A stretch of 64,000 nucleotides of DNA from assembly GCA_021781535.1 (NCBI GenBank), contig JAJXWO010000007.1:45006-109005 (forward strand). Reading direction: 5' to 3'. This document shows positions 43,780 to 62,333 of the stretch, piece after piece. Origin of the DNA: Deltaproteobacteria bacterium. Lineage in GTDB: Bacteria > Desulfobacterota > Desulfuromonadia > Geobacterales > Pseudopelobacteraceae. Both the position numbers and the translations under genes were made by a program. The stretch's first letter is position 1, and every line of letters begins with the position of its first letter. The notes beneath the pieces were generated by a model. It searched no databases and had not been told where the DNA came from. It saw only the letters and a program-made list of their open reading frames with translations.

Positions 43780-43823
43780 AATGTGTAAACACATTGACTT
43801 TAATATGTGTGGTTTGTTATATT
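43780..43823 (+). promoter_or_regulatory. Candidate promoter and operator of the LysR gene
   Basis: A perfect dyad AATGTGT-AA-ACACATT (43780-43795) overlaps a -35-like TTGACT (43794-43799). This is followed after 18 nt by a -10-like TATATT (43818-43823). Such a layout fits an autoregulated LysR promoter. The rest of the DoxX-LysR interval (43413-43779) holds nothing I can assign. Confidence 0.45.
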
Positions 43824-43860
43824 TACGCCGTTTCGTAGTGGAATAGGCGAGGTAAAAAAA

Positions 43861-44796
43861 ATGGAAACGCGCTACCTAAGAACATTCAAATTTGTTTTGG
43901 ATCTGGGAAGCTTTTCCCTCGCTGCTCAGGAACTGTGTATAACTCAGTCAGCGGTATCCCAGCGCATAAAGTTTCTTGAAGATCACTATGGATGTCAACT
44001 GATAGACCGTTCAGGCTCGACTCTTAAGCCAACCCCGTCAGGAGAGAAAGTACTTGCTAAAACAAATATGATTTTGATGGCTGTACACGATCTCGAAAAT
44101 GATGTAAAGAACTTGGGGAAGAAAGTAGAGTTTTCAATAGGCTTTACGCCGACATTCGGTTTTGTTTTCTTGCCAAAGGTTTTAGATATCTTTCTGAAAA
44201 AAAATACTCATGAAATAGATATCAAGTTTATTACCCAACAATCAGATCAACTCATCAAGAATCTTGCTGATAAAATATTTGACGTTATTGTTATTGAGCA
44301 CTGTGAGGAATTAAAGAATAAAAACCTTGCGCTTTTTCCTCTGTTCAAAGATGAAATGGTCATGATTTCATCGCCATCACTGGGGATTGCATCCGAGGAA
44401 ACCAGGCTCGAAGAGTTTTTTAAACATCGACTCATCTCACGACGAGATGGATGCAGTTCACGCCATCTATTCAAGGACAATTTAAGCAAAACGGGAAACT
44501 CTGTTGAAAACTTCAGAGGTGTTATCGTTCACGACCATCTCAGATGCTTAATACAATCGACCTTGCAAGGGCAAGGAGTTGCCTTTGTATCGAGATCTCT
44601 GGTTACTGACCATATTAACGCGGGTAATCTCCGTGAACACGTTATTCCCGGGTTTTGTAATACCCGTTCGCGCACATTGGCCTGTAACCGGAGCAAGGTT
44701 CATGACCCCTTACTCAAGGATTTTATTGAGTCCGTCTTTCAGACTTTTAACGTGCAGTCACCTTTTCGCACTTCTGAAAATGCTGCTGCAATCTAA
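43861..44796 (+). CDS. LysR family transcriptional regulator
   Basis: 311-residue regulator. The N-terminal winged HTH is METRYLRTFKFVLDLGSFSL then ITQSAVSQRIKFLEDHYGCQ. The effector domain (about 90-295) is a two-lobed periplasmic-binding-like fold. The ATG at 43861 is chosen because the HTH starts there, with GAGG 8 nt upstream. It lies 34 nt before the tRNA-Sec gene on the same strand; a functional link to selenium is possible but unproven. Targets and inducer are unknown. Confidence 0.93.
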   Translation: METRYLRTFKFVLDLGSFSLAAQELCITQSAVSQRIKFLEDHYGCQLIDRSGSTLKPTPSGEKVLAKTNMILMAVHDLENDVKNLGKKVEFSIGFTPTFGFVFLPKVLDIFLKKNTHEIDIKFITQQSDQLIKNLADKIFDVIVIEHCEELKNKNLALFPLFKDEMVMISSPSLGIASEETRLEEFFKHRLISRRDGCSSRHLFKDNLSKTGNSVENFRGVIVHDHLRCLIQSTLQGQGVAFVSRSLVTDHINAGNLREHVIPGFCNTRSRTLACNRSKVHDPLLKDFIESVFQTFNVQSPFRTSENAAAI

Positions 44797-44830: not shown

Positions 44831-44928
44831 GGAAGCACGTCCGTCGCTGGTGGGCGGCCTGGTCTTCAAAACCAGTGGGGGGGATGAGAAATCTCCCCGG
44901 TGGGTTCGATTCCCATGTGCTTCCGCCA
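44831..44928 (+). tRNA. selC: tRNA-Sec (UCA anticodon)
   Basis: 98-nt tRNA including an encoded CCA. It has an 8-bp acceptor stem (GGAAGCAC / GTGCTTCC), G as discriminator base, an anticodon stem CTGGT/ACCAG with loop CTTCAAA (anticodon TCA at 44866-44868), a long variable arm (GGGGGGAT...ATCTCCCC) and a T arm containing GGTTCGATTCC. The long acceptor, UCA anticodon and long variable arm are diagnostic of selenocysteine tRNA. selB follows at 45075. Confidence 0.97.
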
Positions 44929-45074: not shown

Positions 45075-46988
45075 ATGAAAAATCTCATACTTGGCACAGC
45101 CGGCCATATTGACCACGGCAAAACCTCACTGGTACGGGCCCTGACCGGCATCGACACGGACAGGTTGAAGGAAGAAAAGGCGCGGGGAATTACCATTGAA
45201 CTGGGGTTTGCGCATCTCGAGCTTTCCGGAGACATCAGATTCGGCATAATAGATGTTCCCGGCCATGAAAAATTTGTACGATCGATGGTGGCCGGCGTAG
45301 GCGGCATGGATATAGTTATGCTGGTAATCGCTGCTGACGAAGGAATCATGCCACAGACGCGGGAACACATGGATATCCTGCGGTTACTTGGAGTCAAAAA
45401 TGGTCTGGTAGCCTTAACCAAGTGCGATATGGTTGACCGGGAATGGCTGGACCTGGTCACCGAGGAGGTGCGCGATTTCGTGTCCGGCAGTTTTCTGGAA
45501 AACGCCCCGATTGTGCCGGTTTCATCACGTACCGCAGAAGGCCTCGATGCGTTGAAGGCCGTCCTGACCGGCCTGGCAAACGATGTTGCCGAAAAACGCC
45601 GCGAAGGGTACTTTCGTTTGCCGGTTGACCGGGTCTTTACCATGACCGGTTTTGGAACAGTGGTGACAGGCACTCTCCTCTCAGGCGAAATCGCCGTAGG
45701 AGATGAATTGGAACTACTTCCGTCAGGCAGGGAGGGAAGAGTTCGCGGTATCCAGGCTCACGGCAGCAAAGTTGAAAAGGGCTTGGCAGGCCAGCGCCTG
45801 GCGGTCAACGTGCAGGGAGTGGCTCTGGATGAGGTGCGGCGAGGAGACGTTGTTGTTCCACGCAATCTGTTTCAAACAACCCGCGCAGTGGATGTCCGCC
45901 TCGACCACCTCTCTACGGCCCCCCGGGAATTGAAACACCGCACCAGCGTACAACTTCATTCGGCTACCTATGAGGTCCAGGCTCAGATTATCCTGCTGGA
46001 CCGTGATAGCATTCAGCCGGGAGACAGCACGTATGCGCAGTTGCGACTGGCTGAACCGGTCCTGCTCAATTCAGGCGACAGCTATATACTGCGCATAGCC
46101 TCACCCGCCACCACGATAGGCGGCGGTGTTGTGTTGGACCCCTTCCCCCCCCGCCGCAGGCGCCGGAGCGAAGAGGCGGTGATGCTGCTGGAGTCACTTG
46201 AGAGCCAGGAGCACCAGCGAGTCTGCGCCCTGATCATTGGCCAGAGCAAGCTGTCCGGACTTTCATTCGAGGATATTCTCCTGCGCTCCGGTATCTCACG
46301 CAAAGCCGCAGAGACGGCGCTTGCAGCACTCCTGGGTACCGGTGATATTCTTCAAATGACTCGTGAACCACGCATGTTTCTGTCCAGAGATTCATTCAAT
46401 TCACTCAAGAATGGATTGGTGGACGAGGTGAGTTCATTTTTGGCGTCCAACCCTCTTAAACATGGAATGGGAAAGGAAGAACTAAAAACCCGCCTGCCCA
46501 AGCGAAGTGACCTGCGCTTTTTTACGCCGATTCTGTCAGCTCTGGAACGGGACGGGTTGATAATACCCGAGCGTGACATCGTCATGCTGGCAGGCCAGAC
46601 CGTGCGAACAACCGCTTCAGCAGAAGATCTGACGTCGGCCGTCAGTTCATTTTTGCGGGAAAAAGCACTTGAGCCTCCCACCATAAAAGAGCTCATGGAG
46701 CGTTTCCATTTTGACGAGAAGTCGGTCCGCGATAATATTGCCATCCTGATCAGAAATGGCGATGCGGTGCGTATATCCAGCGATTTATTCTACGCCAGCG
46801 AGGTGTTGGACGGCCTGCGGGAAAAATTGATACTGCATCTTCGCGAAAAGGAAGAGATCACTCCACCTGAATACCGTGAACTGACGGGACTGTCTCGCAA
46901 ATTTCTCATTCCGCTCTTGGAACATTTCGACAGTGAAAAGGTTACCATCAGAGTGGGAGACAAACGAGTTTTACGGAAACGCCTGTAG
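45075..46988 (+). CDS. selB: Selenocysteine-specific elongation factor SelB
   Basis: 637-residue GTPase that delivers Sec-tRNA to UGA codons and binds the SECIS hairpin. Domain I has [39 protein letters not shown] and [12 protein letters not shown]. Domains II-III follow, including [20 protein letters not shown]. The C-terminal 270 residues form the winged-helix RNA-binding domains. It lies 146 nt after selC. With two likely Sec cytochromes in the same window, its substrates are near at hand. Confidence 0.97.
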
Positions 46989-47071: not shown

Positions 47072-47893
47072 TTAATATCCGGAGGAGCCGCTCATTTTCG
47101 CATGGCACCGCCTGCAGTCATTCATGGGAAAAGCCACACGCATATGGCAGGCGCCGCAGTAATTACCATAAATGTTATTCTTCATGGAAAAAAACTCCGT
47201 CCCGTCCCTCTTGATTTTGAATATGTCGGGATGGCAACTTGAACAGTCCAGTTCGGCAAAATGATCCTCATGCGAAAAGGTGACGTCGCTGCGTGGTGAA
47301 GTTGTTCCCAGCTTCAACGGCGCTTTGAGCTTATCGGGAAATTGCATGACTGAACGTTCTGCGCGGAATGAATTGGAGGGGGCGATCTGCCCGTCTCTCA
47401 GTGCTTTGGCCCAATCTATGCCATTTCCGAATGATGCCGCGGGAAGTTTCTCCGCAAATTTTTCAAACCGTTCCTCTAATGCTCTTGTATCCTTCATATG
47501 GCATTTTTCGCATTTGGTCGGGTCTCCATCCAGTACGGAAAATGCGGTTTTCCCATCGTGACAGGCGCCGCAGTATTTTCCGGCCAGATACTGCGCCCTG
47601 GTGACCCCGGTATCACCTGAACGCATGCCGAATTCCAACTCAAGGTGACAAACACGACAGGTATATTTTGTCCGATGAACCCAGTGGGGGAAAACAACCG
47701 GGGTCATTCCTGCTTTTTTGCTTTTGCGGCGCATTACTACAGTACCGTATTTCCAGAATGGGCCATTGGGCGGCATCGCATGGAGGACTTTACCCAACTC
47801 TTCCCGGTCCTCTGCTTCCCCGTGCCCGGCTCCGCTCCACAGTAGCACGGCCAGAACCATCAGCGGTACTATGACTGAATATCTGGCTGTCAT
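47072..47893 (-). CDS. Secreted six-haem cytochrome c (c7/triheme-type repeats)
   Basis: 273-residue exported cytochrome. A signal peptide (MTARYSVIVPLMVLAVLLWS) is followed by six CXXCH sites (CRVCH, CGACH, CEKCH, CSSCH, CGACH, CRRCH) arranged as two groups of three. Each group has PxVFPHWVHR- or VTFSHEDHF-type His ligands, as in cytochrome c7-type triheme domains. It should carry electrons in the periplasm. It is a close paralogue of the product at 48270-49073. The ATG at 47893 is preferred to a GTG two codons earlier because of GTGGGG upstream. Confidence 0.93.
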   Translation of the reverse strand: MTARYSVIVPLMVLAVLLWSGAGHGEAEDREELGKVLHAMPPNGPFWKYGTVVMRRKSKKAGMTPVVFPHWVHRTKYTCRVCHLELEFGMRSGDTGVTRAQYLAGKYCGACHDGKTAFSVLDGDPTKCEKCHMKDTRALEERFEKFAEKLPAASFGNGIDWAKALRDGQIAPSNSFRAERSVMQFPDKLKAPLKLGTTSPRSDVTFSHEDHFAELDCSSCHPDIFKIKRDGTEFFSMKNNIYGNYCGACHMRVAFPMNDCRRCHAKMSGSSGY

Positions 47894-47949
47894 CTGCACC
47901 CCACGGCATTACCGCCCTGTTACGGGAAGATTACGACGAGCGACCCGGG

Positions 47950-48261
47950 TCATTGCGGCTTTTGTTCCCGAATTTTAGAATCCAGAACGAATGTGTAGAA
48001 ATTTTTGCACATCTGCAGTCTTTTCAGATAAACCTTACGAACCGTTTCTTCCTCATTTTCTATATTCTTCTGCAAACTGACACACCGCTCTATGAGCTTT
48101 TCCAACTCGGGGACCGGAAGAGCCATGGCATCGGTGGATTGTGAGCATACCGCATCAAATTCAGTTCGCCAGGCTTCCGCACCGTAGACAGCGTGCATGG
48201 CAATGAACAGGCTTATACATCCTGCCATAATCAAGACGGTAATTCTTCTACCAGTTCTCAT
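47950..48261 (-). CDS. Small secreted hypothetical protein between cytochromes
   Basis: 103-residue protein with a clear signal peptide (MRTGRRITVLIMAGCISLFI ... VYGAEA). The mature part is helical and charged with three Cys (DAVCSQ, ERCVSL, QMCKNF). It has no haem site. Not recognised. The ATG at 48261 lies 7-9 nt after AAGGGTG; a GTG start at 48273 would overlap the upstream cytochrome stop by 4 nt (GTGA). Its position between two paralogous cytochromes suggests an accessory or assembly role. Confidence 0.7.
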   Translation of the reverse strand: MRTGRRITVLIMAGCISLFIAMHAVYGAEAWRTEFDAVCSQSTDAMALPVPELEKLIERCVSLQKNIENEEETVRKVYLKRLQMCKNFYTFVLDSKIREQKPQ

Positions 48262-48269
48262 ACGTTTAT

Positions 48270-49073
48270 TCACCCTTGGGGCGGCGTGGCATGGCACCGC
48301 TGGCAATCCGTTTGCGGAAAGGCGACCTTCTCATGACACACGCCGCAATACTTACCATCAAAAATGTCGACCATGGAATACTTGGAAGTCCCCTTTTTGA
48401 CCCCGATAAATATCTCCGGGTGACAGAGCTCGCAACCGTTCCAAACTGTGTGTTTTTTATGTGAGAAGATGATGTCCGGCATCCCTCCAACTTTCGCTTT
48501 AATGGCAAAATCCGGGTTAACTTTCAGATTCGATTTTTTTGCGGAAACACCCTCCAGATAATCGATCGGCTTGATTAGGCCCTTTTCTTCAGCGACTTCC
48601 CAGTTAATCCTGTTTCCGAACCTGTCACCCGGCATTTTTTCAGAAAACCGGTAAAATTCATCCTCCTTGGCGGCACGTTTTTCCAGCGTATGACATTTCA
48701 CACATCTTTTATACTCTTCCCGGCTGTATTCCCTGGCGCATGATTCAAAAATTCTTTTTTTATTATGCAGCATCTCGCCATTATGGCATGTCCCGCAATA
48801 ATAGCCTTTCATGTTGTCCGCTGAGCAGATCTTGGTAGATCCGGCGATCATACCGAAGCCGACATCCACGTGGCAAAGTCTGCATGTATAATATTGTCGG
48901 TGCACCCAGTGGTCGAATACCACCGGCGGCATGCCCGCCTGCTGGGAATAATTATTGATGGTAACAGTGCCAAATTCATACGGAAGAGGTTTGTGCTTCT
49001 TCATACCGCCCTGGGCCCACGCAATGCCGGCAACAACCAGCAGTATCGGTACAACGAAAAATATTTTTCTCAT
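48270..49073 (-). CDS. Secreted six-haem cytochrome c (paralogue)
   Basis: 267-residue exported cytochrome with signal peptide MRKIFFVVPILLVVAGIAWA. Six CXXCH sites (CRLCH, CGTCH, CVKCH, CELCH, CGVCH, CQRCH) appear in the same order and spacing as in the 47072-47893 paralogue, with matching PPVVFDHWVHRQYYTCRLCH and DIIFSHKKHTVWNGCELCH ligand segments. The central region between the two triheme halves also aligns. It lies 19 nt downstream of selA, so selA and both cytochromes may share a transcript. Confidence 0.94.
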   Translation of the reverse strand: MRKIFFVVPILLVVAGIAWAQGGMKKHKPLPYEFGTVTINNYSQQAGMPPVVFDHWVHRQYYTCRLCHVDVGFGMIAGSTKICSADNMKGYYCGTCHNGEMLHNKKRIFESCAREYSREEYKRCVKCHTLEKRAAKEDEFYRFSEKMPGDRFGNRINWEVAEEKGLIKPIDYLEGVSAKKSNLKVNPDFAIKAKVGGMPDIIFSHKKHTVWNGCELCHPEIFIGVKKGTSKYSMVDIFDGKYCGVCHEKVAFPQTDCQRCHATPPQG

Positions 49074-49092: not shown

Positions 49093-50493
49093 TTATTCTA
49101 AGACGAATTTGGCAACTTCTCCAAGCGAAGCTTCCAGAGCCGGCATGTCGTGATCGAGGATGGTGCGGACATCAAGCAGAAAACGCTCCCGCTGAATTCG
49201 GCCGATCACCGGTTGTGATGCCCCCCGCAGTCGCTGCTCGATCTGTTGGGCTGACAGCCCGCTGATGCGGACTTCGAGGAGCGTTGTCGGCAGGCTCAGC
49301 AAGGGGAGTGAACCGCCACCGGCGCTGGATTCGCCCTTATGTTTCAACAGTGTTACCGTTTGAGGGAGCCGGCGGCGCAGTAAACGGACAAGCCGGTCTG
49401 CCCTTCGCGATAATTCGGCCGGAGTCGCCGTGAGCATGCGCAGAGTCGGAATTTCACAAATTGCGTGCCGCTCGTCGCGATACAGACGCAACGTTGCTTC
49501 CAGCGCCGCCAGGGACAGCTTGTCCATCCGGAAAGCTCGCATCAGCGGGTGACGTTTCATCGGCTCAAGCAGTTCCCGTTTGCCGGCAATGATGCCGGCC
49601 TGGGGTCCCCCCAGAAGTTTATCACCGCTAAAGGTTACCACATCAACACCTGCATCCAGATAGCAGCCGACGGTCGGCTCTCCGGGAATGCCATACGGTG
49701 CCAGGTCAATCAAGCAGCCGCTGCCGGCATCAGCCATGACCGGGACTCCAATCTTTTTCCCCAGAACAGACAGTTCCTCGACAGACACTTCGGCAGTAAA
49801 ACCAACCACGGCAAAGTTGCTGGTATGCACCTTGAGCAACAGAGCCGTGGCATCGCTATGTGCATTAAAGTAATCACGGACATGGGTGCAGTTGGTCGCA
49901 CCGACCTCTACCAGATGCGCCCCGCTCTGCTGCATTACCTCAGGGATGCGAAAGGAACCGCCAATTTCCACCAACTCTCCCCGGGAGACGATGACCTCTC
50001 TGCCTAATGCCAGGGTCGACAAAGCCAAAATGACGGCAGCGGCATTGTTGTTAACCACCAGCGCCGCTTCAGCGCCGGTCAGTTCGCAGATGAGCCCTTC
50101 CACATGATCATGACGCTTGCCCCGCACCCCGCTGGACAGGTCGTATTCAAGGTTGGAATACCCACAAGAAACTCTGCGGATAGCCTCTTCAGCGTCGAAA
50201 GCCAGCGGTGAACGCCCCAGGTTGGTGTGAATGACTACCCCCGTGCCATTGACGACCTCCCGGAGGCTGGGCCGGCAGCGACAAGCAAGTTCAGCGCTTA
50301 CCAATGCGCTCAGATGTTCACGGGATAGATCAACGCTTGAATTGTGGCGAACGGCATCACGCAGACGGTCAAGCACCTGCCGTACCGCAGCCAGCAGTTC
50401 CGTCCGGGGATGAGAGGCCGCAAGGGCAGCCATCTGATCCCAGGCCAGAACACGATCAACTTTGGGTATCTGCTTCAAAAGCTCTTGCTTCAT
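49093..50493 (-). CDS. selA: L-seryl-tRNA(Sec) selenium transferase
   Basis: 466-residue PLP enzyme that converts Ser-tRNA-Sec to Sec-tRNA-Sec using selenophosphate. It has VNGTGVVIHTNLGRSPLAFD, LTGAEAALVVNNNAAAVILA, and the PLP Lys in VVTFSGDKLLGGPQAGIIAG, all typical of bacterial SelA. With selC and selB 5 kb away, three of the four Sec genes are in this window; selD (selenophosphate synthetase) is not seen. Confidence 0.97.
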   Translation of the reverse strand: MKQELLKQIPKVDRVLAWDQMAALAASHPRTELLAAVRQVLDRLRDAVRHNSSVDLSREHLSALVSAELACRCRPSLREVVNGTGVVIHTNLGRSPLAFDAEEAIRRVSCGYSNLEYDLSSGVRGKRHDHVEGLICELTGAEAALVVNNNAAAVILALSTLALGREVIVSRGELVEIGGSFRIPEVMQQSGAHLVEVGATNCTHVRDYFNAHSDATALLLKVHTSNFAVVGFTAEVSVEELSVLGKKIGVPVMADAGSGCLIDLAPYGIPGEPTVGCYLDAGVDVVTFSGDKLLGGPQAGIIAGKRELLEPMKRHPLMRAFRMDKLSLAALEATLRLYRDERHAICEIPTLRMLTATPAELSRRADRLVRLLRRRLPQTVTLLKHKGESSAGGGSLPLLSLPTTLLEVRISGLSAQQIEQRLRGASQPVIGRIQRERFLLDVRTILDHDMPALEASLGEVAKFVLE

Positions 50494-50607: not shown

Positions 50608-51630
50608 CTATGATTGTGACAAAAGCACTTCTATTTTAGCACTCCTGCGAGCCTCTCCGACAAAATCTCCAATAGCGGCATTTATCTTTTGAGCCTTGAG
50701 ATAATCCTCAATTTTTTTATGGGCAGTAGCCAAAGGGACCGTTTCCGCTTTTTTCCGATCCGTCACCTTGATGATGTGAAAGCCAAATTGTGTTTCTACC
50801 ACGCCGCTCAATCCTCCAGGTTCAAGGGCAAAAACGGCCTGTTCGAATTGAGGCACCATTTTCCCCTTGGTGAAATAGCCCAGATCGCCACCCTGCTTAC
50901 TGCTGGGGCACGTAGAATTTTCCTTCGCCAGCGCCACAAAATCTGCCCCACTTTCCAGTTCTTTGTGCAGTTTTTCGGCTTTTTCACGAGCTTTATTTTT
51001 TTCTTCAGCCCCCGCTTTGGAATCAACGCCTATCAAAATATGGCTCGCCCTCACCTGTTCGGGCTGGCTAAATTTATCAGAATTTTGATCATAAAACGTT
51101 TTGATCTCTTTTTCACTGACTGCAACCTGGGAAGCGAAGTTCGTATTGACAAAATTGGCAATAACCAGATCGCGACGGGTATAGTCACGGAGCATGTTCT
51201 CATCCATTCCGATATTCTGGAGTTCTTTGGCATACACATTTGCATCAGGGAATCCTGATTTGATTTTTTCCAATCTGTCAGCGGTCTGTTTGTCGAGGTC
51301 CTTGACATCAAGCTTCTGGCCGGCCTGGAAAAGCAGCTCAGAGCTAATCAACTGATTGAGCGCCTGCTTTTCAAATTCTTTCTTAAGAGTGGGGGGAATC
51401 TCCACGCCTGGTTGGTTTGCCATTAATATTTTTTCGGCCCGCTTGAGTTCACAAAGAGTTATTTCCGTGCCATTAACCCGAGCAACCGTTTTTTTCAGTT
51501 CAGGTGAAGAAAAGTCCGTAGATGATAATGATTGCACCACATTCGACGCTCCAGGCGAACAGGCTGAAATAAACAGCGTCAGCATTGATGCTGCAATCAC
51601 AGGTTTCAGCAATAGTTTTGAATGGTTCAT
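50608..51630 (-). CDS. PpiC/SurA-type peptidyl-prolyl isomerase lipoprotein
   Basis: 340-residue foldase. A lipoprotein signal ends in the lipobox LFISAC. A SurA-N-like region and a parvulin domain (VRASHILIGVDSKAGAEEKN, STCPSSKQGGDLGYFTKGKM, GFHIIKVTDRKK) follow. It is paralogous to the gene at 6155-7174. The first gene upstream of selA on this strand, 114 nt away. A membrane-attached foldase next to secreted cytochromes suggests help in cytochrome folding, but this is inference. Confidence 0.92.
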   Translation of the reverse strand: MNHSKLLLKPVIAASMLTLFISACSPGASNVVQSLSSTDFSSPELKKTVARVNGTEITLCELKRAEKILMANQPGVEIPPTLKKEFEKQALNQLISSELLFQAGQKLDVKDLDKQTADRLEKIKSGFPDANVYAKELQNIGMDENMLRDYTRRDLVIANFVNTNFASQVAVSEKEIKTFYDQNSDKFSQPEQVRASHILIGVDSKAGAEEKNKAREKAEKLHKELESGADFVALAKENSTCPSSKQGGDLGYFTKGKMVPQFEQAVFALEPGGLSGVVETQFGFHIIKVTDRKKAETVPLATAHKKIEDYLKAQKINAAIGDFVGEARRSAKIEVLLSQS

Positions 51631-51813
51631 TGACAGGTTTCCTCCGTAGATATTGTTTTGATTATAAAACTTGGATATTTTTTAGTTATTTCTATTTTAT
51701 TATTAGTTTAGTATAAATACACGTAATTCATTTTAGATTCTATTTTTTAAATGTAGCTGCAACCAGTTATTATAATAATGGCTGGATTAAAAACTAACCT
51801 GGAGGAGTGCAGA

Positions 51814-52233
51814 ATGAAAAAGACTAGCGTACTGGCAGCTCTGGTTATCATGACAGCATCAACAGCAATGGCGCAACAGTGGAAATATTTGGGTGACTAT
51901 GACGTTTCTACCAGATTTTTTTACAATCCAAAAACATTGTCGGTTTCCACAGGCTCTATTGTTACCGCCTGGACCAGAATTGAATATAATGTGGACAGTA
52001 CTGCCATGGCAAAAGAAAAAATATCATCGAATATGTCTAAAGGGACAAAAACAGTTGCTGCATATGAAGAGTTCGACTGTGTGAATAAGAAAAAACGTAC
52101 TATAACGGGTATGTCCATTGAAAAAGTTAAAAAAGCAGACCTTGACAAAACAGACTGGCTAGAAGTTGCAAAAGGCAGCGTTGACGAAAAATTACTTATC
52201 TCGATATGTCGGGAAATAAAACCTCAGAAGTAG
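51814..52233 (+). CDS. Secreted small protein, adhesin-E-like
   Basis: 139-residue protein with a signal peptide (MKKTSVLAALVIMTASTAMA). The mature part (QWKYLGDYDVSTRFFYNPKT, SIVTAWTRIEYN, YEEFDCVNKKKRTITGMSI) resembles the surface-adhesin protein E family, small exported proteins of uncertain function. Two Cys may form a disulfide. The ATG at 51814 has GGAGGAG 6 nt upstream. The 180-nt region before it is very AT-rich. Confidence 0.75.
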   Translation: MKKTSVLAALVIMTASTAMAQQWKYLGDYDVSTRFFYNPKTLSVSTGSIVTAWTRIEYNVDSTAMAKEKISSNMSKGTKTVAAYEEFDCVNKKKRTITGMSIEKVKKADLDKTDWLEVAKGSVDEKLLISICREIKPQK

Positions 52234-52382: not shown

Positions 52383-52975
52383 TTAGTTCGTGCCGTTAAC
52401 GGTGATAGTCTGCTTGATTAAGCCTATCTGCACGCCGGCCTTGAATACGTAGATCTGAACCAGTTTGCTGCCGGCACTGGTGTACGTATGCGCTTTGGAA
52501 ACAGAAGAGGCATTGACGGTGGTGACGTAGTCGTATCTGCCGTCGCCCCAGACGATTTTCAGTTTATCGTTGAGGGTTGGCAGAGCTGTCACGGTAACGA
52601 TACCACCAAGGTTTCCAGCATTGTCAGCCCAGGTTATCTGATTTGCAGCTGGGGGAACAACGACAGACACCTGTTGCGTTGTGAATGATACATTGCCCTC
52701 CTCGTCGGTAACCTTCAGGGTGATGGTCTTGAGCCCTGTGGTTGCAAAGGTTACGTTTGAGGTTTGGCCATCTGCGATAACAGCTCCATCGCTGGCGCTC
52801 CAGGCATAGCTGGAGAAGCCGACATTACCGGCCTGAGCATCAGCTGCTGCAAGCGGCTGAGCAGCACCCTGAGCTATCTGTATACCTGGGGTTGCCGCGT
52901 CGATGTCGGTAAAGGTTGATGTGATGGTGGCAATCGGCATCACGCCGATACCGGACTGTGCTGCAGTGATACCGG
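52383..52975 (-). repeat. C-terminal PKD-coding segment, copy 1
   Basis: Direct repeat with 58983-59580. The final 280 nt are about 88% identical by eye, and a 36-nt stretch near 52930 (coding GIGVMPIA) is identical in both. It codes two PKD-like domains (FATTGLKTITLKVTDEEGNV; KIVWGDGRYDYVTTV). The haem-binding parts of the two genes are far less similar, so the tail may have been kept alike by gene conversion. Confidence 0.85.
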
Positions 52976-55900
52976 TCAGATAGGTTTTAAAGTCTGCCCG
53001 GGTTACGTGGTCAATACCCTTGACGTCTACAAAACTGACGCCTGTAGCTGTAGGATACAACACTTCAGCACGATCAAGCTCGGTCACACGCTTGTGGGTG
53101 GCTGCGCCACCAGGAGTAAATACACCACCACTCCATGTACCTTCCTCATCGAACTTGACTTCTACGGCTCCACCGGCCTTGGTTGAAACTTCAGCACCGG
53201 TCTCGATGTCAGCGTTAAGACCAACAACCTCCATCAGTTCTGCAGGAGCTTGCATGAAACCTTGGCCATTTGCTATAGCTTTTACGGTATTAATTGCGGT
53301 ACCGAGCATGTTCATTGTGCCATCAAACATTGGCACTGCAGCGGTAGCTACTGGTGAATGGCAATCGGCGCAGCCGAAGCTCGGTGACGTGCCTTTACCC
53401 AGAACGAACTTGTCAACCGGGCGGATACCATGAGTTAACTTGTATGGTCCGGCAACAAAAGCAAGCTGGGTTCCACTCCACGATTTGCCATCAACAGCCG
53501 GGCTGATCTCGTTTCTCCATGCTTTGTACGCTGTAATTTCTTCCGGTGTGGAGAACATGGCGTTGCCGCCATAGACACCAACGTATTTCGCAGCACCAGG
53601 AACGAAGGCGCCTGTTGGACTAAATGCACTTTGGTAAGCACCACTGCCAAAGCCGACCGGAATTGGAGCGAACCCGGAAGGACCGAAGTTCATACCGGCC
53701 TTCATGTCGCGGGCGATCCATGGGTCATAATTGGTTGCCGGAAGAATTTCTGGAGTACCCGCATGAATGCTCGGCTCACGTCCCGGTACGCCATCACCGT
53801 TGGCGTCTACAGTCCCGCTAACGTTGTTCCAGATTTGCGCAGTGATCAGGTTGACAGCGTACATTTTACGCCGCCATTCTGTATTCACTCCACCAGTATT
53901 CAGGTGACTGCTGGTCATGTTCTTGAATTTGAAATCGTTGCCACCTTTCTGCCAGGTGTAAAGAGGAGACCATTTTTCCAGGTTGCTGCCGACGGTGGCA
54001 CCCGCAGACATAGGATCGCTGAACATACCCATCATGCCACGCTCAGCTTTAAAGCCAAGCATGTTGGGATAGCGATTACCCGAGGTGCAGTCGAGGAGAC
54101 GAACTACCATCTGCTCGCGTGTCAAGTGGCACACGGTACAGTCGATTACGTCCAGATGGCTTCCGACAAAGTTCTCTTCAACGCCGGTAGTTGCATTCAA
54201 ACGAACAGACTTGGTAAGGTTGGCAAGAAGGCCGGCGTTTTGGTGAGCAAGGGTCGGATTAGGCGCGCCCATTGTATCGATAGCTACGCCATCAGTGTTC
54301 TTGCCGGTTACATGGCAGTTAGCGCAATGTTTAACGGTGTTCTGGCTGTTGACGGTAGTAACGAAGGCTGGATTTGCTTCAACTCCACCGGCACTGTCAA
54401 AACCACGGCCCGGATCGCCAGCGCTCTTGCCGTCAAAGGTTCCGGCAGCATTGTTGATCTTGGTTGTATTGGTATTCATGTGGCAGCCGGAGCAGTCCAG
54501 CGACAGGTGAACGTCATAACCAGGTGCCCACATATCGCCACGCTTGAACCATTCAGCACGTGGAAATGGAACCGCACTCTTCTTGAGGACGTTCTGGTCC
54601 TGATGGCCCTGTGCGTCGATAGTGGCCTGATAGAAGATCGGGCCGGACATGGTAGGGTTGCCGCCACCCATGAAGTAGTTTTTCATGCCTGGCATCGCTG
54701 TGGAGAAGTTGTTGAATGCAGCTTGGTTGAATTCAGTCCTGCCCATGGCGGATGGCCAACCGGCAGGAATCATGGTATTAAAGCCCGGCGTAAAGCTGCC
54801 GATGCCGGTCTGAGTCATATACAGAGTTGGCGAAGTTGCATATGGGCCAACTTGCATATCCCATGTCATGCCGAAAGGCGCATTCATGTCGAACGACGGC
54901 ATTGCCAGACCGGTAAAGGACTTGACAAATTTGCCGGTATAGATCATTGGCGCTGAAGAGAGGAAGTCCCTGAACATGTCCGGAATATCCTTCAAGTTGG
55001 ACGGCATGTGACAATTGCGGCAGTTCTGGCTCGGTGGATCGTACTTCATCTTGGACATACCAACGTCTGATAAAGATACGACGCTCATGCCGTTTTCATC
55101 AGGTGCGCTCTTACTGAGTATGCCGGTAGTGAAATCATACGCCTCAGTAAACATATTCATAAAGCCCGCGCCGAAAGATGGCGTGGCGTTATGGGCACCG
55201 CTGTAGGCCATGACAGATGACATCATGTTGTTGTAGCCGTCGAAATGGCACATGAGGCAGTCCATCTCTTTTACGTTCGGCATCATAACCTGTTTGTCAA
55301 CAATCGGCATGACGGAACCGTCAGGCATGGTCATGTCCATGGCTGTACCCCAGCCGCCTGGGGCGGTAAGCGGAGTGGTGCCGTTCCAAATCGGGTAGGA
55401 CCATGGAGCAGGCTCAACCGTATGTGCCGGCATACCGGTCAGTGGGTTATAGCGCTCAAATATTGACATGGTGTAAGGAGAGATGCCATCGGTCATTGGG
55501 TTCATCATGCTGAAACGTTTGCCGTTACGATCCTTTTCTATAAAACCGCCGCCCACGTGACAGGAACCGCAGGACTGTGCAAAGTCCCAGGCGGTGATGT
55601 CAACTTTGGTCAGGAGCGGGTTTGATCCCTGAACTGTACTAAAACTGCTCGTACCTTTAAGCATAAGTTCTAGTCCTGGAGAGGCTGGACCGGTATACGC
55701 TCCATAATTAATTGATTGTCCTGCGGAGTTTTTCAAGTAGTTCGGCACCTGCCGAAGCGAGGGGCTTCACCACTTGCCGACCATTGCGGTCGCCTGGGTC
55801 CAAGGTTTGGCCTTGGCTGTAGTAAATTTACCGTCTCCAGTTAGGGAATCAGGATACTCATTGCGTCCCTGGGCCGAATGGAACGCATGGTCTGAAATGT

Positions 55901-56171
55901 TGTCGTACGTCTGATCAACGCCGGTAGTTTTGTTAATGTGGCATCCGGCAGTTCCGCAGGTCTGCTTCGGGCTGTACGGCATACCCTTGCCGTTTGCGTC
56001 AACCATAACTGGCACTTTCGCTCCACCGGCCATCTGCATGCCGATTTCTTCGAATGTGTAGAGCGTAACAGGTGGATGGGCGGCAAATGAAGTACCCGCC
56101 ACAAGGACCAGACCGGCAGCAACCGTCGCTGTCAGAAGTCCTGGCTTACCTCTCATTTTTTCCATTTTCAT
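52383..56171 (-). CDS. Selenocysteine-containing multihaem cytochrome c (in-frame TGA, Sec135)
   Basis: Predicted 1262-residue exported cytochrome read through a TGA at 55767-55769. Before TGA: signal peptide (MKMEKMRGKPGLLTATVAAG ... SFAAHP), a haem-like CX4CH site (CGTAGCH), the HAFHSAQGRNEY motif and MVGKW. The frame continues without shift after TGA as SPSLRQVPNYLKN, then seven CXXCH sites (CGSCH, CLMCH, CRNCH, CSGCH, CANCH, CTVCH, CADCH). Two PKD-like beta domains form the last 190 residues. A SECIS-like hairpin starts 10 nt past the TGA, and selA, selB and selC are close by. The start has AAGGAG upstream. Standard gene calling would give 55767-56171 and 52383-55748 as two genes, the larger without a signal peptide. 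A nonsense mutation is the alternative; the matching gene at 58983 argues against it. Confidence 0.87.
55741..55756 (-). promoter_or_regulatory. SECIS-like hairpin 1
   Basis: In the mRNA a 6-bp perfect stem UUCGGC / GCCGAA closes an AGGU tetraloop. The stem begins 10 nt and the loop 16 nt after the UGA. Bacterial SECIS elements have an apical loop carrying G and U about 16-37 nt after UGA, and the E. coli fdhF loop also begins AGGU. The position is identical to that of the second hairpin. Confidence 0.8.
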
Positions 56172-56784: not shown

Positions 56785-58173
56785 ATGAGCTCAGATTTAT
56801 TTGCGAGTATTGTTGGAAGCATTTCAGACGGTATCTATGTCATACAGGATAACCGGACCATCTTTCTCAATGACCGTTTCGGAGAGATTTTCGGCTACCC
56901 ATCCATCGATCACCTTATCGGCCAAGACATGTTTGCCACAGTCTACCCGGACCAGCAGAGTGTCGATCTGTTCCGGTCAGTTAACGACAAGGTCTTGGCC
57001 AGCGCTCCACAGCTGACATCCTGGGGACAACCAAGCACAAAGCTCGACGGCACCAACTTCTGGCTCCAAGCTGAAGCGAGGCGCATTGAAGTCAACGGCA
57101 AGCCCGCCATCCTGGGCACTTTTCAAGATCACACCGACTGCAAATTGATTGGACAGGCTATGCATGCGTCACAGGCTACGCTACATCTCGTGCTTGATGC
57201 CATGGAGGACCGCGTCTATGTTGTGACCGACGACTACCGGATCGTGTATGCCAATCGAAAGATGCATGAGGGTATTTGTTGCGATATCGCCTCGGAACCA
57301 TGCTACAAGGTCTGCCGGGGGCTTTCAGAGATCTGTGCGGATTGTTCTCAGGACACGGTTTTTTCCTCCGGCAAGCCGACGTACAAGGAATTCTTTAACG
57401 AAAAAACTCAATTATGGTATTCGGTAATTGAACTCGCCATCAGGATGCCTGGTATTGACCGACCGACAAAACTTGCAGTTGCCCGCGACATTACCGTTCG
57501 AAAGGAGGCGGAGAAGAAAATCCGTGCACTTTCACACCGTCTCCTCAATGCACACGAAGATGAAAGAAAGCGCCTGTCACGGGAACTTCATGACGATTTG
57601 GGTCAGCGACTGAATGCGGTCAAAATTGGAGTGGATACACTGGCCGAAGATTTGGCCGATTTTCCCACTGATATTTTTAACCATGTGAGCAACCTTTCCC
57701 AAGTACTGCAATCTTCCATAGAGTCAGTCAGAAATATTTGCGCCGGATTGCGACCTGTTTCTCTGGAAATGAGTGGTTTGTTGGAGGCGATAAAAAACGA
57801 TTGTGCCAATCTGTCCGTGGTTAATGGCCTCAAAATAGATTTGAAATCGTCCGGCATGAAAAAAGTTCATCTTGACAGCGAAGCAGAGATCAATCTCTAC
57901 CGGGTTTTTCAGGAATCCCTCCACAATATTGTAAAGCACGCCGGGGCAAGCAAGGTCACAATCAGTCTTATTGCGTCACATCCCATCATCAGGATGCGGA
58001 TTGAGGATAATGGCAAAGGTTTTGACACCCTGGAGCGCATGGCAAAAAACGATAACAAACTGGGGTTGGTTGGCATTGCAGAGCGGGTTGGACTTATGTG
58101 CGGGACATTTGAAATGGTCTCCCGACCGGGCATGGGAACACGTATTGTCGTTGAGATTCCGTGCCTCAATTGA
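56785..58173 (+). CDS. PAS-domain sensor histidine kinase (NarL-type partner)
   Basis: 462-residue soluble kinase with no membrane segment. PAS 1 (about 5-115) begins SIVGSISDGIYVIQDNRTIF. PAS 2 (about 125-245) has a Cys cluster, GICCDIASEPCYKVCRGLSE followed by ICADCS, like the CYxxxxGxxxxCxxC motif of many redox- or metal-linked PAS domains. The HisKA_3 dimerisation helix has the phospho-His in RLSRELHDDLGQRLNAVKIG. The ATPase has FQESLHNIVKHAGASKVTIS and DNGKGFD. It lies between the two Sec cytochrome genes and 43 nt before its response regulator. Confidence 0.93.
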   Translation: MSSDLFASIVGSISDGIYVIQDNRTIFLNDRFGEIFGYPSIDHLIGQDMFATVYPDQQSVDLFRSVNDKVLASAPQLTSWGQPSTKLDGTNFWLQAEARRIEVNGKPAILGTFQDHTDCKLIGQAMHASQATLHLVLDAMEDRVYVVTDDYRIVYANRKMHEGICCDIASEPCYKVCRGLSEICADCSQDTVFSSGKPTYKEFFNEKTQLWYSVIELAIRMPGIDRPTKLAVARDITVRKEAEKKIRALSHRLLNAHEDERKRLSRELHDDLGQRLNAVKIGVDTLAEDLADFPTDIFNHVSNLSQVLQSSIESVRNICAGLRPVSLEMSGLLEAIKNDCANLSVVNGLKIDLKSSGMKKVHLDSEAEINLYRVFQESLHNIVKHAGASKVTISLIASHPIIRMRIEDNGKGFDTLERMAKNDNKLGLVGIAERVGLMCGTFEMVSRPGMGTRIVVEIPCLN

Positions 58174-58216: not shown

Positions 58217-58888
58217 ATGAACAAAAAACGGGTACTCATCGTTGACGATCATCCACTATTTCGTGACGGCTTGAAAAGCCTGGTGGAAAGGAGTGCCAAC
58301 TACCAGACCGTCGGCGAGGCGGGGAGCGGCGCAGAGGCCGTGAACCTCGCTCTTGAGCTCAAACCGGATTTGATCACCATGGATGTATCTCTGCCTGACA
58401 TGAGCGGCATCGATGCGGTTCGGGACATCATGAAGGTTGTTCCGTCGGTCCAGATTCTCATGCTCAGCATGTATCCAAAATTAGATTATGTCGCCGAGGC
58501 ATTCAAGGCCGGCGCACGAGGCTATGTGGTCAAGGAAGCTACCAGCGCCCGTCTGATTCAGGCTTTCGATACTCTCTGCAGAGGTGAGTACTTTGTTGAC
58601 GGTCAGGTTTCCCAGGACATCGTGGTGAAACTCATGGCAGGTTCGGCGAGCGAAGCCGTAACCCAGGACGAACTTTACGGGTTACTCACCGCTCGCGAGC
58701 AGCAGGTACTGCGAATGGTAGCCGAAGGAATGACTTCCCGCGAAATTGCCACCCGTGTAAACCTTAACACCAAGACCGTTGAAAACCACCGGGCCAACCT
58801 GATGAAAAAACTGGACGTTCACAGCAAAATGGAACTTGTCAAATATGCCGCCAAACTGGGACTGATCGATCTTGACAACTGGCGTTAG
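58217..58888 (+). CDS. NarL/FixJ-type response regulator
   Basis: 223-residue regulator. The receiver (about 1-120) has RVLIVDDHPLFRDGLKSLVE, DLITMDVSLPDMSG and YVVKEATSARL. The LuxR HTH (about 155-218) has LLTAREQQVLRMVAEGMTSR followed by VNLNTKTVENHRANLMKKLD. It is the probable partner of the preceding kinase. It may bind the shared elements upstream of the Sec cytochromes, but NarL-type regulators do not normally activate sigma-54 promoters, so its role there is uncertain. Confidence 0.95.
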   Translation: MNKKRVLIVDDHPLFRDGLKSLVERSANYQTVGEAGSGAEAVNLALELKPDLITMDVSLPDMSGIDAVRDIMKVVPSVQILMLSMYPKLDYVAEAFKAGARGYVVKEATSARLIQAFDTLCRGEYFVDGQVSQDIVVKLMAGSASEAVTQDELYGLLTAREQQVLRMVAEGMTSREIATRVNLNTKTVENHRANLMKKLDVHSKMELVKYAAKLGLIDLDNWR

Positions 58889-58982: not shown

Positions 58983-59580
58983 CTAGTTAGCGCCGTCAAC
59001 GATGATGGTCTGCTTGATTAAAGCTTTCTGTACGCCAGCCTTATATACGTAGATCTGAACCAGCTTGTTGCCGGCGCTGGTATACGTATGTGCTTTGGAA
59101 GCTGATATGGCATCGACGGTGGTGACGTAGTCGTATTTGCCGTCGCCCCAGACGATTTTCAGCTTATCATTGGGGGTTGGCAGGGATGTCACTGTAACAA
59201 TACCACCAAGGTTCCCAGCATTGTCAGCCCAGGTTATCTGATCTGCAGCCGGTGCTACAACAACATTCACATCTTGTGTTGTTACAGCTACATTACCTTC
59301 CTCGTCAGTTACCTTCAGGGTAATTGTCTTGAGCCCTGTAGTTGCAAAGGTAACGCTGGAGGTTTGGCCGGCAGCGATAGTAGCTCCATCGCTGGAGGTC
59401 CAGGCGTAGGTGACAAAACCACCAACCTGTGCAGCAGTTGCTGCAAGCGGTTGGGCAACAGATGTGTAAACCTGAACGCCAGGAGCTGACGGATCTTTGT
59501 CAGTGAATACTGAGGAGATGCTGGCAATCGGCATCACGCCGATACCGGACTGTGCTGCGGTGATACCGTTCAGGTAGCCG
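58983..59580 (-). repeat. C-terminal PKD-coding segment, copy 2
   Basis: Partner of the repeat at 52383-52975. Same order of two PKD-like domains (FATTGLKTITLKVTDEEGNV; KIVWGDGKYDYVTTV; KAHTYTSAGNKLVQIYV), with mostly third-codon differences between copies by eye. Confidence 0.85.
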
Positions 59581-62333
59581 GTCCAGGAAGAGGCACCAGC
59601 ATACTGTGTTGCTCCGGTCAGAACACCAAGCTGTGGGGCTGCAACATAGGCTTTACCACCCAGGCCGAATGGCCCGAAATCGGTTGCAGCATTAAGCTTG
59701 ATCATGAAACCGGCTGCCGGAGTGATGACAATATTGTTGGCACCGCCATCGGTAATTGTGAAACCAAAACCGTTGGCGTTAGTTGCAAACACGCCCATGC
59801 CGGTGATGTTAGCGGCAATAGAGGTGTACTCACCGTTAACAGCCCAGGTACGGCTCGGTTGAGCAACGCCCAGATCTGTTTGTACATCGATCTTCAGGAT
59901 GTGGCCTTTGGTCGATACGCCACCATCAGCACTGGAGTTCATTATGCCTGTCGCTGTACCACCGACAATCGGTGAAGCAGAGAAGGTGGTCAGCGCTGCA
60001 GCCTGATCCTTAAAGACCGGCTCATAAATTACTTCACTGCGATCGATGTTTCTGAGAACACCAAGATCAGCACCTGCAGGAGCAGGATTGAAAAGCTGAA
60101 AGGCAACGGTGCGCTTACCATGCTTGTCCATGATGTTTGGATGACCTTCGGAAGCATCCATCTTGCCGTTAACCTTGGTGAAGGTGGCCAGCTGGTTGGG
60201 GCCGAATGTCCAGGTCAGGTTGCCGTTGATCGGATAAGCGCCGTTGTAGAAACCTTTGTTAGCGCCATGGCAATCAGTACAGCCGTAAACTTTATTGCCG
60301 TTAACATCGACTGTCGGCTTGCCCCAGGCAACGTCAGCCGGAGAGATGTTGTGAGTGCTCTTGAACGGCACTGTCAACATGGAGATACGTGGTACAAAGT
60401 TTGGGGTAGCGCCGTCAGTCTTCATAGGAGGTGTTACGCCGGTGGCCGCAGCGATACCTGCAGAAAGAAGAGCCTGACGGGCTGCGATCTCAGCGGTATT
60501 GATAACGCCGTCTGCTGCCAGAGCTTTCAGCCCGCCGTTATCCAGGTTGATCTTGGCAACATGGCTTGGCAGCAGCGCATCCATACCACCGGCACGACCA
60601 TCCTGATTGGCATCATAGTTAAAATCGTTCATATCACGCCAGAAGAATGAGGTCAGCAGGTTGGCTGAGTAGAGCTTGCCACCCAGCCAGTGCAGGGCAA
60701 GACCGTTCGACATGTCTTTTGCTACAAAAGGATCGTCATGCAGTGCGACGCGGCCCTGCAGGTCGGTACCGGTTCCGTCAACAAAAGCGCCACCGGTGAT
60801 GCCGGCTTTGTTCTTGGTGTGACAGGCGGTACAGTCGATGATATCAATGTGGCTCTTGCTGGCAACACCGTTCTTTACACCGGCGGCCTGCAGCAATTTT
60901 GCGGTGAGTCCGGCAGCCTGGTGAGCTGTATCAGCACGAGGCGCGCCGTAGGTATTCCATGTAGGAGTAACAGCAGGGGTATGGCAATCTTCGCAGGTTT
61001 TAAAGGCAACCTTGTCCAGGCCACCCCACGCTGCGTCGAAGGGCGATGTGCCCCCTTTAGCCGGATCACACTGACCAAGAGCTGCTTCGGTTACGAGACC
61101 GGTTGTGCCGACTGGGGTGCCTGTTTTGCGCTCATGGCAGGCCATGCAGCCGAAACCGTAGTGCACTTCATTGCCAGCTTTCCAGATCTCACCACGTTTC
61201 TTCCAGTCGACCGCATATTCTGACTGATGGCAGGAAGCACAGTTTGTCGACTTCGGTGTAGCAGCGATCATCGAGCCAACATTGACGTTGAGTACCAGAT
61301 CTCCATCACCATTTGTTGAGACTTTGGTGGGATCGTACGTTACTTTAACGCCGCTGACTGCCGTGCCGAGGCCGGCACCGGCAACGCGAGACGCATCGAA
61401 GTTCCCTACGCGAACCTCATCCCTGCGTTTATCCCATTTGTAACCATCAAGATGGCACATGAGGCAGTCCATCTCAAGAACACCAGACTGGGCATAATCA
61501 GTGGTTTTGGCTGCATAGGTTGGACCTACATAGGTTGGACTGGCAGGATTTAGGTCACGATCAACACCATTATGGTCAGTTGGTTCAAAACCGAGGCCGT
61601 CAAGACCGAAGATGTCAATAAAGGTGTTGAACGAGTTTACGGAAGTGCCGAAATTGGCATCGCGGTAATCGGTACGGTTGGCCGGATCATACTGGTACTT
61701 TTTGGCCGAAGCATCGACTACGCCGGTTACTGAAGAGGTGTAATACTGATTGAAGCCGCCGCCAACATGGCACTCGGCACAGTCGCGCATCATGCCGGCG
61801 ACGCTGTTGTCAGCCTTCTTGGTGAAGTTTACCCCGAAATCGAATGGTGTAAAAGTGGTATATGCGGGATCAGTCGATTTTGCTGTTGCCGGATCGTACG
61901 CCGGTGATGCACCGTCATTGTATGTTCTCGCCAACTGGCGAGCAGAGGGTGGTCACCACGAGCCAAAGTGACCGGGGCTCTGTACCCAGCTTTTGCCGGG
62001 AGAAGCAGCGCCGGTGCGGAAGGCATCGGTTGAATCAGCGTTATAGGGATTGAATCCGCGGAACTCGTTAGAGCCGATCTGAGCGTGATAGTTATGTTGC
62101 TCAATCTCTTTGTAGCTGCGCAGCTGTGTACCTGAACTGGCTGTGCCGTTATGACAGAAGGAGCAGGTGCCCTGCATACTGAATGCGTTATTAGCGGTGT
62201 CAGGCTTGATTGCGGTCCCGGCTCTGTCGCGCAGCACGATGCTCTCGTGTCCAGCGGCAAAGACCGTTCCACATGCCAGGCCGACAGCCATTGAGGCCAG
62301 CAGGACAGACTTTTTATGGATTGGTCTACTCAT
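58983..62333 (-). CDS. Selenocysteine-containing eight-haem cytochrome c (in-frame TGA, Sec127)
   Basis: Predicted 1116-residue exported cytochrome read through a TGA at 61953-61955. Before TGA: signal peptide (MSRPIHKKSVLLASMAVGLA ... VFAAGHES), CSFCH haem site, HNYHAQIGSNEF, and HFGSW. After TGA the frame continues PPSARQLARTYN and has seven CXXCH sites (CAECH, CLMCH, CASCH, CMACH, CEDCH, CTACH, CTDCH), giving eight haems. Two PKD-like domains end the protein. The Trp-Sec-x-Pro-Ser-x-Arg-Gln context and the H-x-x-H-x-x-x-G-x-N-E motif match Sec cytochrome 1. A SECIS-like hairpin starts 10 nt after the TGA. The start has AAGGAG 7 nt upstream. Conventional calling would give 61953-62333 and 58983-61934 as separate genes. 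Confidence 0.88.
61927..61942 (-). promoter_or_regulatory. SECIS-like hairpin 2
   Basis: In the mRNA a 6-bp perfect stem CUCGCC / GGCGAG closes an AGUU tetraloop. The stem starts 10 nt after the UGA, as in hairpin 1. Two of the six stem pairs differ from hairpin 1 in both partners or as compensating pairs, while the loop keeps A-G-N-U. This is the covariation expected of a conserved RNA structure. Confidence 0.8.

Follow-up and report, generated by a model that had tools for sequence, protein, structure and literature searches.

Paired octaheme cytochrome genes with a conserved in-frame UGA, probably read as selenocysteine, beside selenocysteine genes in a member of the Geobacterales

Introduction

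Multiheme cytochromes with selenocysteine (Sec) are already known as a kind, from ExtKL and from a Sec protein assigned to TIGR04315. ExtKL of Geobacter sulfurreducens (GSU2937 and GSU2936) is a multiheme c-type cytochrome of the Geobacterales with a predicted Sec, and it lies in an electron-conduit cluster (PMC1914089, PMC5877670, PMC6148476). A 2026 selenoproteome review lists ExtKL under NF040886, a GenBank-annotated Sec protein (WP_331457571.1) under TIGR04315, and the GSU2204 family CXXCH-containing protein (an MtrB/PioB barrel) as a selenoprotein with a heme-type motif (PMC13188914). Octaheme tetrathionate reductase (OTR) of Shewanella oneidensis (PDB 1sp3; TIGR04315) is an enzyme whose active-site heme has a lysine ligand (PMC12285233). 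Here we describe two genes, gene 1 and gene 2, in 64,000 nucleotides of a Deltaproteobacteria bacterium of the Geobacterales (GCA_021781535.1, contig JAJXWO010000007.1, positions 45,006 to 109,005; hereafter the window), each of which is interrupted by a single in-frame UGA.

We consider that gene 1 and gene 2 probably encode selenoproteins, which are likely to be exported octaheme cytochromes, predicted to have the OTR fold, with Sec likely at a catalytic heme. Insertion of Sec, taken on its own, seems to us highly likely from the sequence comparisons: the UGA is conserved, the hairpin that follows it shows compensating changes, selection is purifying on both sides, relatives with Cys exist, and selenocysteine (sel) genes are adjacent.

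Results

Two long reading frames share one in-frame UGA

Read on the minus strand from 62333 to 58983, gene 2 is a single frame whose sole internal stop is a TGA. Gene 1, read from an ATG at 56171, likewise has a single internal stop, the TGA at 55769-55767 (Table 1). In both genes the ATG is preceded by GGAG and begins a signal-peptide-like N-terminus, and a PKD_4 match above the Pfam cut-off lies close to the C-terminus. Gene 2 has CXXCH heme sites at residues 57, 185, 290, 365, 396, 447, 501 and 685; gene 1 also has eight heme sites, the first of which is CX4CH.

An earlier note on this DNA, made from the letters alone, had described gene 2 as two frames in phase with one TGA between them, and this is borne out by a frame of 1,116 residues with a stop only at codon 127. 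The downstream frame that it drew at 58983-61934 is indeed in phase, but the start at 61934 does not stand, being merely the first TTG after the TGA in a frame that runs through. The flanks that it reported as shared by the two genes (W-TGA-x-P-S-x-R-Q) recur in full as G-S-W-U-P-P-S-A-R-Q in gene 2 and G-K-W-U-S-P-S-L-R-Q in gene 1, as does an upstream H-x-x-H-x-x-x-G-x-N-E (HNYHAQIGSNE and HAFHSAQGRNE). Across the 3.80-Mb assembly, TGG-TGA-NNN-CCN-WSN-NNN-MGN-CAR had three matches, against none for the reversed pattern; with G-x-W added, gene 1 and gene 2 alone were left. The earlier note had also thought coincidental stops at one codon unlikely. We agree, since the TGA site is also present in relatives at 40% identity and below, which takes it far beyond chance.

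Selection past the UGA and presence of selenocysteine genes

We calculated ratios of nonsynonymous to synonymous substitution rates (dN/dS; Nei-Gojobori) on both sides of the UGA. Past it, dN/dS was 0.140, 0.221, 0.219, 0.106 and 0.113 for gene 2 against five relatives, and 0.170, 0.163, 0.117 and 0.269 for gene 1 against four, with synonymous divergence near saturation in the more distant pairs and above 1.8 in three of the nine. Values before the UGA were much like those after it in both genes. Thus, the downstream part, which the earlier note had singled out for this check, is under strongly purifying selection (0.11-0.27), and relaxed selection was not seen.

The distance from gene 1 and gene 2 to the genes for SelA, SelB and tRNA-Sec is about 2-14 kb, and the selB of the window is the sole selB above cut-off in the whole assembly. 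Within the class, selB above cut-off is so common (236 of 277 genomes) that its presence is little informative, and we therefore used the 26 genomes of the named loci. SelA and SelB were sought in 11 of these, chiefly those without a strong tRNA-Sec, and two Cys loci (L124, L125) that share a whole-genome shotgun prefix with TGA loci (L114, L118) were counted under genomes with the TGA form. Among the 16 TGA-form genomes, 12 have a tRNA-Sec of at least 60 bits and three more have SelA or SelB above cut-off; the remaining one has a SelB piece of 230 bits, below the 242-bit cut-off. Genomes in which the Cys form alone was seen were evenly divided: five with a Sec marker, and five with neither tRNA-Sec nor SelA nor SelB. 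The one-sided Fisher probability of the split (16:0 against 5:5) is 0.004. Hence the TGA form was not found in any marker-free genome (16 tested), as the earlier note had expected, and half of the ten Cys-only genomes are marker-free.

Two genomes have two selB genes above cut-off each (G190, contigs C38 and C89; G159, contigs C72 and C3), and in each genome one of the two genes adjoins the Sec cytochrome.

A covarying hairpin directly follows the UGA

In both genes the codon is directly followed by a stem-loop that resembles a bacterial selenocysteine insertion sequence (SECIS). For comparison we assembled 44 windows of sequence (41 distinct), with at least 90 open codons before and at least 63 after the TGA; the pattern used to collect them demanded TGA, which is thus present in this set by construction. 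The 48 bases align without gaps in all 44. Each has a 6-bp stem whose loop begins 16 nt past the UGA and reads AGUU (34) or AGGU (10), with a G as in the apical loop of bacterial SECIS elements. Stem cells are paired in 97.2% of cases. Two-sided changes were found in 25 cells, against 5.7 in shuffles (0 of 500 shuffles were as high), and the covariation score of the stem was 0.290, against at most 0.069 in slid controls. Two coarser counts, the number of pairs with a two-sided change (three) and of further pair types (five), were no better than shuffles (117 and 195 of 500, respectively). RNAalifold recovered the same 6-bp stem unprompted. In gene 1, the swap of C-G to G-C comes with a Pro where most relatives have Ala.

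The mean fold energy was -11.8 kcal/mol in 76 Sec DNAs and -4.0 kcal/mol in 14 Cys DNAs, and in Cys relatives the hairpin is absent or decayed. One of them, L104 from Desulfocapsa, still has a decayed copy, as expected from a recent change from Sec to Cys. A scan of the window with Rfam listed tRNA-Sec alone, and the hairpin is covered by no Rfam family. Its strict placement provides a handle for finding further members of the family.

Three loci (L119, L121, L126) have a variant hairpin just past the TGA, which when judged by eye seems to have a bulged U, as the E. coli SECIS does.

The site is mostly UGA, and otherwise most often Cys

A homology search of the 277 genomes of the class found relatives in 48. 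Among the matches listed, 45 span residue 127, of which 43 have exactly one TGA; the two without a stop (G165, G174) belong to a third paralogue, in which Ser occupies this position. A motif search allowing TGA, TGC or TGT matched 51 of the 277 genomes, with five matches for the reversed-pattern control, and every match in a long heme-bearing frame, read in context, was TGA. The class-wide TGC and TGT matches (8 of 8) were rejected as chance hits in short frames without hemes.

From a scan of named genomes (74 loci), the best 80 of 82 confirmed stretches were taken on. Among the carriers of TGA forms are Geomonas, Geotalea, Malonomonas, Desulfuromonas, Desulfocapsa, Desulfobulbaceae, Ammonifex, a Clostridiales genome and Calditrichota. 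In a codon-blind count of the motif in the fetched loci (83 matches, less three off-site), the 80 sites were 69 TGA, 7 Cys, 3 Ser and 1 Asp, with no TAA or TAG; these loci were partly collected with TGA/TGC/TGT patterns, and forms lacking R-Q are missed. The Cys counterpart that the earlier note had proposed to look for exists, both as full-length proteins known from protein records (P0014, P0139, P0152, P0162) and at the DNA level (L104 and others). The genome of Desulfocapsa sp. IMS_BF has the Cys copy with the decayed hairpin (L104) together with a TGA copy of the same family (L112).

Other residues occur at the site in paralogues. A third octaheme paralogue of the same cluster, seen in Geomonas and relatives (L075:8333-11446 on the minus strand, L098, L099, L185, L186), has Ser (TCC, TCT or TCG) in the context G-x-W-S-P-x-Y-N-R-Q, and one paralogue in L077 (genome G075) has Asp (GAT) in an otherwise intact motif, G-N-W-D-P-P-S-V-R-Q. 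A TGA also occurs in a different octaheme subfamily, in a locus from Nitrospirae (L138:9875-11899; G-N-W-U-S-P-A-P-L-Y). The remaining fetched members of that subfamily carry Cys, and L138 lacks the common hairpin; its TGA looks like a separate change to Sec.

Resemblance to OTR and a possible role for Sec

Both OTR and the window proteins have eight heme sites. With the full-length model, the Foldseek list was filled by PKD/FN3-like matches, and the heme part was therefore folded alone; the overall fold of this predicted model is that of OTR. In a profile alignment, the invariant Lys379 aligns with Lys153, a heme ligand in OTR, and may ligate heme here. Searching PDB with the family profile gave weak matches to NrfA and 1sp3, and a profile comparison with a narrower alignment (A3) joined the last heme only. 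A PDB sequence search with P0001 (P0001 and P0002 being the window proteins) found mostly PKD domains and no cytochrome; that other cytochromes are absent from these PDB and Foldseek lists is no evidence against them. Between hemes 1 and 2, OTR has a conserved Cys, and the window family has Cys or Sec in the same order (heme 1, C/U, heme 2), a correspondence of order in a region that the profile alignments stop short of. This residue, Cys64, is the active-site Cys of OTR, and its place may be taken here by Sec127. The window proteins differ from OTR in having a predicted Sec for Cys, in their length (1116-1262 against about 475 residues) and in their extra PKD/Ig tail.

We propose that the UGA would be decoded as Sec by the products of selA, selB and the tRNA-Sec gene of the window, through the SECIS-like hairpin directly after it. 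Sec127 would then stand in place of OTR Cys64 beside the Lys-ligated heme, where it may act as a nucleophile or an iron ligand. The substrate would be a small inorganic acceptor; a chalcogen oxyanion or a compound with an S-S, S-O or N-O bond is our guess. Electrons may arrive via cytochromes of 11 and 13 hemes whose genes lie upstream in relatives, the enzyme may be anchored to the cell surface by its PKD/Ig tail, and the two genes may be switched by the PAS kinase and the NarL-type regulator encoded between them. An OTR-like catalytic role is, to our mind, likely, and the pair is best read as respiratory selenoenzymes that are probably exposed at the surface and receive their electrons from a multiheme conduit. 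A more specific picture is tentative, and we would rather bet against it than for it: Sec127 facing the Lys379-ligated heme from its open side, where it would bind the iron as a selenolate or act as a nucleophile, in a surface selenoreductase at the tip of an extracellular conduit. On this picture, with the hairpin-marked site recurring from Geobacterales to Calditrichota and Firmicutes, a whole class of enzymes of selenium respiration would be masked by truncated gene calls.

Sec might instead be inserted and yet be structural, redox-buffering or a gate that ties expression to selenium supply, in a protein that serves as an electron wire ending the conduit. The Ser and Asp paralogues of the same clusters manage without the group, the multiheme neighbours resemble electron-transfer proteins, and adjacent sel genes would fit a selenium-responsive unit. 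However, outside the heme motifs few residues are as conserved as C/U127, Trp126 and Arg132, Cys is the commonest of the non-Sec residues (7 of 11), invariant His residues outside the motifs are fewer than the hemes, and OTR, the nearest relative of known structure, is an enzyme. We regard a non-catalytic Sec as unlikely.

Listed selenoprotein families

A further possibility is that the family is the already listed Sec form of TIGR04315, or ExtKL, given that the review has entries for both (PMC13188914). WP_331457571.1 is listed, like the predicted products of gene 1 and gene 2, as an octaheme cytochrome with one Sec; it is assigned to TIGR04315, a model that P0001 and P0002 do not reach. Neither TIGR04315 nor NF040886 matches P0001 or P0002 at an E-value of 0.01. 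Of nine relatives compared with TIGR04315, six score 26-41 bits, against a cut-off of 375, and three have no match. The same genome also encodes true TIGR04315 proteins, by genes of their own (contigs C69 and C4), and among the matches listed (109 of 137 genomes matching) none has a stop. ExtKL is likewise encoded by another gene: it has five hemes, its Sec follows them in the context G-H-G-I-P-D-G-U-P-T-P, and it occupies a separate locus in this genome (contig C124, G000:C124:10838-12121, L175; NF040886 586.6 bits, one TGA). The GSU2204 model (NF041027) has no match to P0001 or P0002 either, and its family is by name an outer-membrane barrel, unlike the window cytochromes. Model scores thus refuse membership in all three families, and we think it very improbable that the family is the listed Sec form of TIGR04315 or ExtKL.

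Among the matches listed from the open-access literature, we found no Sec octaheme cytochrome beyond the entry in PMC13188914; subscription papers and preprints were outside that search. A paper on Geobacter cytochromes (PMC12977616) contains no word beginning with "seleno". What is new here is a widespread Sec family that is predicted to share the OTR fold, is cut short in most database records and carries its own hairpin signature, and the pairing of its genes within a cytochrome cluster near sel genes.

Most database records seem to begin at or after the UGA

The usual database annotation corresponds to a reading in which the UGA is a true stop, separating a short monoheme N-terminal piece from a large heptaheme protein with an internal start. 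Of 173 database relatives, 171 have a BLAST match, and 131 of these 171 start at or past the site by gapless extrapolation; the 131 exclude 35 that cannot be placed either way and the two without a match. Five of the 171 align across the site: four have Cys, and the fifth, P0033, we take for a misalignment. The annotated starts are widely scattered, with offsets from -1 to 143 residues. Heme c is attached outside the cytoplasm, and the large piece would lack a signal peptide, which sits at the start of the whole frame. Together with the covariation of the hairpin, its loss or decay in Cys forms, and the existence of unbroken Cys proteins, this leaves the two-polypeptide arrangement scarcely credible. 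Pseudogenes or sequencing errors, with a nonsense mutation in each gene, could be suspected from the stop-split frames and from a draft assembly with 8.87% estimated contamination, but we give that next to no credence, since both paralogues, and dozens of genomes from several phyla, have the stop at the same codon, as TGA and never TAA or TAG at the counted sites, and the sequence after it is under purifying selection. The dN/dS and hairpin evidence led us to reject both readings. The preference for recoding over pseudogenes expressed in the earlier note is accordingly upheld, with dN/dS, Cys versions, Sec markers, a compensating hairpin and sel genes in the window behind it.

Under recoding, records that start at or past the UGA are missing the first heme and the key residue as well as the signal peptide. 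When the UGA is read through, the database relatives form a large predicted selenoprotein family of metal-reducing bacteria and beyond. If true, this would link selenium supply to extracellular respiration; nature would have provided a test of what selenium does at a c-type heme, together with Sec, Cys, Ser and Asp forms of a single site.

Gene neighbourhood

We compared the surroundings of the two genes (Table 1) in 17 genomes, each represented by a stretch of about 20 kb, or of 30 kb in two cases. The order multiheme cytochrome, gene 2, regulator and kinase, gene 1, PpiC is complete in four (G216, G175, G109, G131), and in G231 it is the same except for the multiheme cytochrome, where the contig ends. 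The rest have parts of the module only, and G034 has none. SelA and/or SelB are encoded within the stretch in six genomes (G231, G145, G131, G254, G190, G159). Both c7-type cytochromes stand beside the module in L087, and one in L070.

Table 1. Features of the window (positions count from its first letter)
Feature	Position	Strand	Basis or remark
Multiheme cytochrome-associated LysR regulator beside selC	43807..44796	+	NF041036 347.6 bits (cut-off 210)
selC, tRNA-Sec (UCA)	44831..44928	+	ARAGORN; Rfam RF01852 78.3 bits, 44831-44924
selB	45075..46988	+	TIGR00475 364.9 bits (cut-off 242)
Two c7-type multiheme cytochromes	47072..49073 (47072-47899, 48270-49073)	-	TIGR04257 above cut-off
selA	49093..50493	-	TIGR00474 606 bits (cut-off 268)
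PpiC/SurA-like foldase, travels with gene 1	50608..51630	-	Pfam; synteny
Small Adhesin_E-like protein	51778..52233	+	PF16747; synteny
Gene 1, paralogue of gene 2, 1262 residues, predicted Sec135	52383..56171	-	Eight heme sites, PKD + Ig-like tail
Gene 1 SECIS-like stem-loop UUCGGC-AGGU-GCCGAA	55741..55756	-	Compensatory C-G to G-C change
Gene 1 in-frame UGA, predicted Sec codon (codon 135)	55767..55769	-	
PAS sensor histidine kinase between gene 1 and gene 2	56785..58173	+	Pfam; synteny
NarL/LuxR-type response regulator	58217..58888	+	Pfam; synteny
Gene 2, predicted exported octaheme cytochrome, 1116 residues, predicted Sec127	58983..62333	-	C-terminal PKD + Ig-like domain
Gene 2 SECIS-like stem-loop CUCGCC-AGUU-GGCGAG	61927..61942	-	
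Gene 2 in-frame UGA, predicted Sec codon (codon 127)	61953..61955	-	TGA kept in relatives
Multiheme cytochrome upstream of gene 2, 5' end cut by contig end	62711..64000	-	Paired_CXXCH

The counterpart of the truncated multiheme cytochrome has 11 CXXCH motifs in L090 and in L093 (Geomonas paludis). Upstream of gene 2, these two loci also encode further cytochromes, which have 13, 4 and 5 CXXCH motifs, a pair of lipoprotein-like proteins (with NHL repeats in L090) and a protein of 671-681 residues that ends in Phe and has no family match in L090; a terminal Phe is frequent in outer-membrane barrels. Ahead of the TGA, the frame has 601 codons in L142 and 580 in L145, with seven heme sites, so that gene 1 seems to be fused in frame to an upstream multiheme cytochrome. 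Two distant Sec relatives (L127:1932-4493, L136:9878-12433) have a C-terminal FdhI/gamma-type cytochrome b above the TIGR01583 cut-off, and L138 has a cytochrome b561-family protein (PF01292) next door. The conduit cytochromes upstream, the cytochrome b fusions and the b561 neighbour point to a quinone- or conduit-fed reductase.

Over their last 200 residues, the products of gene 1 and gene 2 are 76% identical, against 29-34% in other aligned stretches. The PKD tails are thus far more alike than the rest, which may reflect gene conversion.

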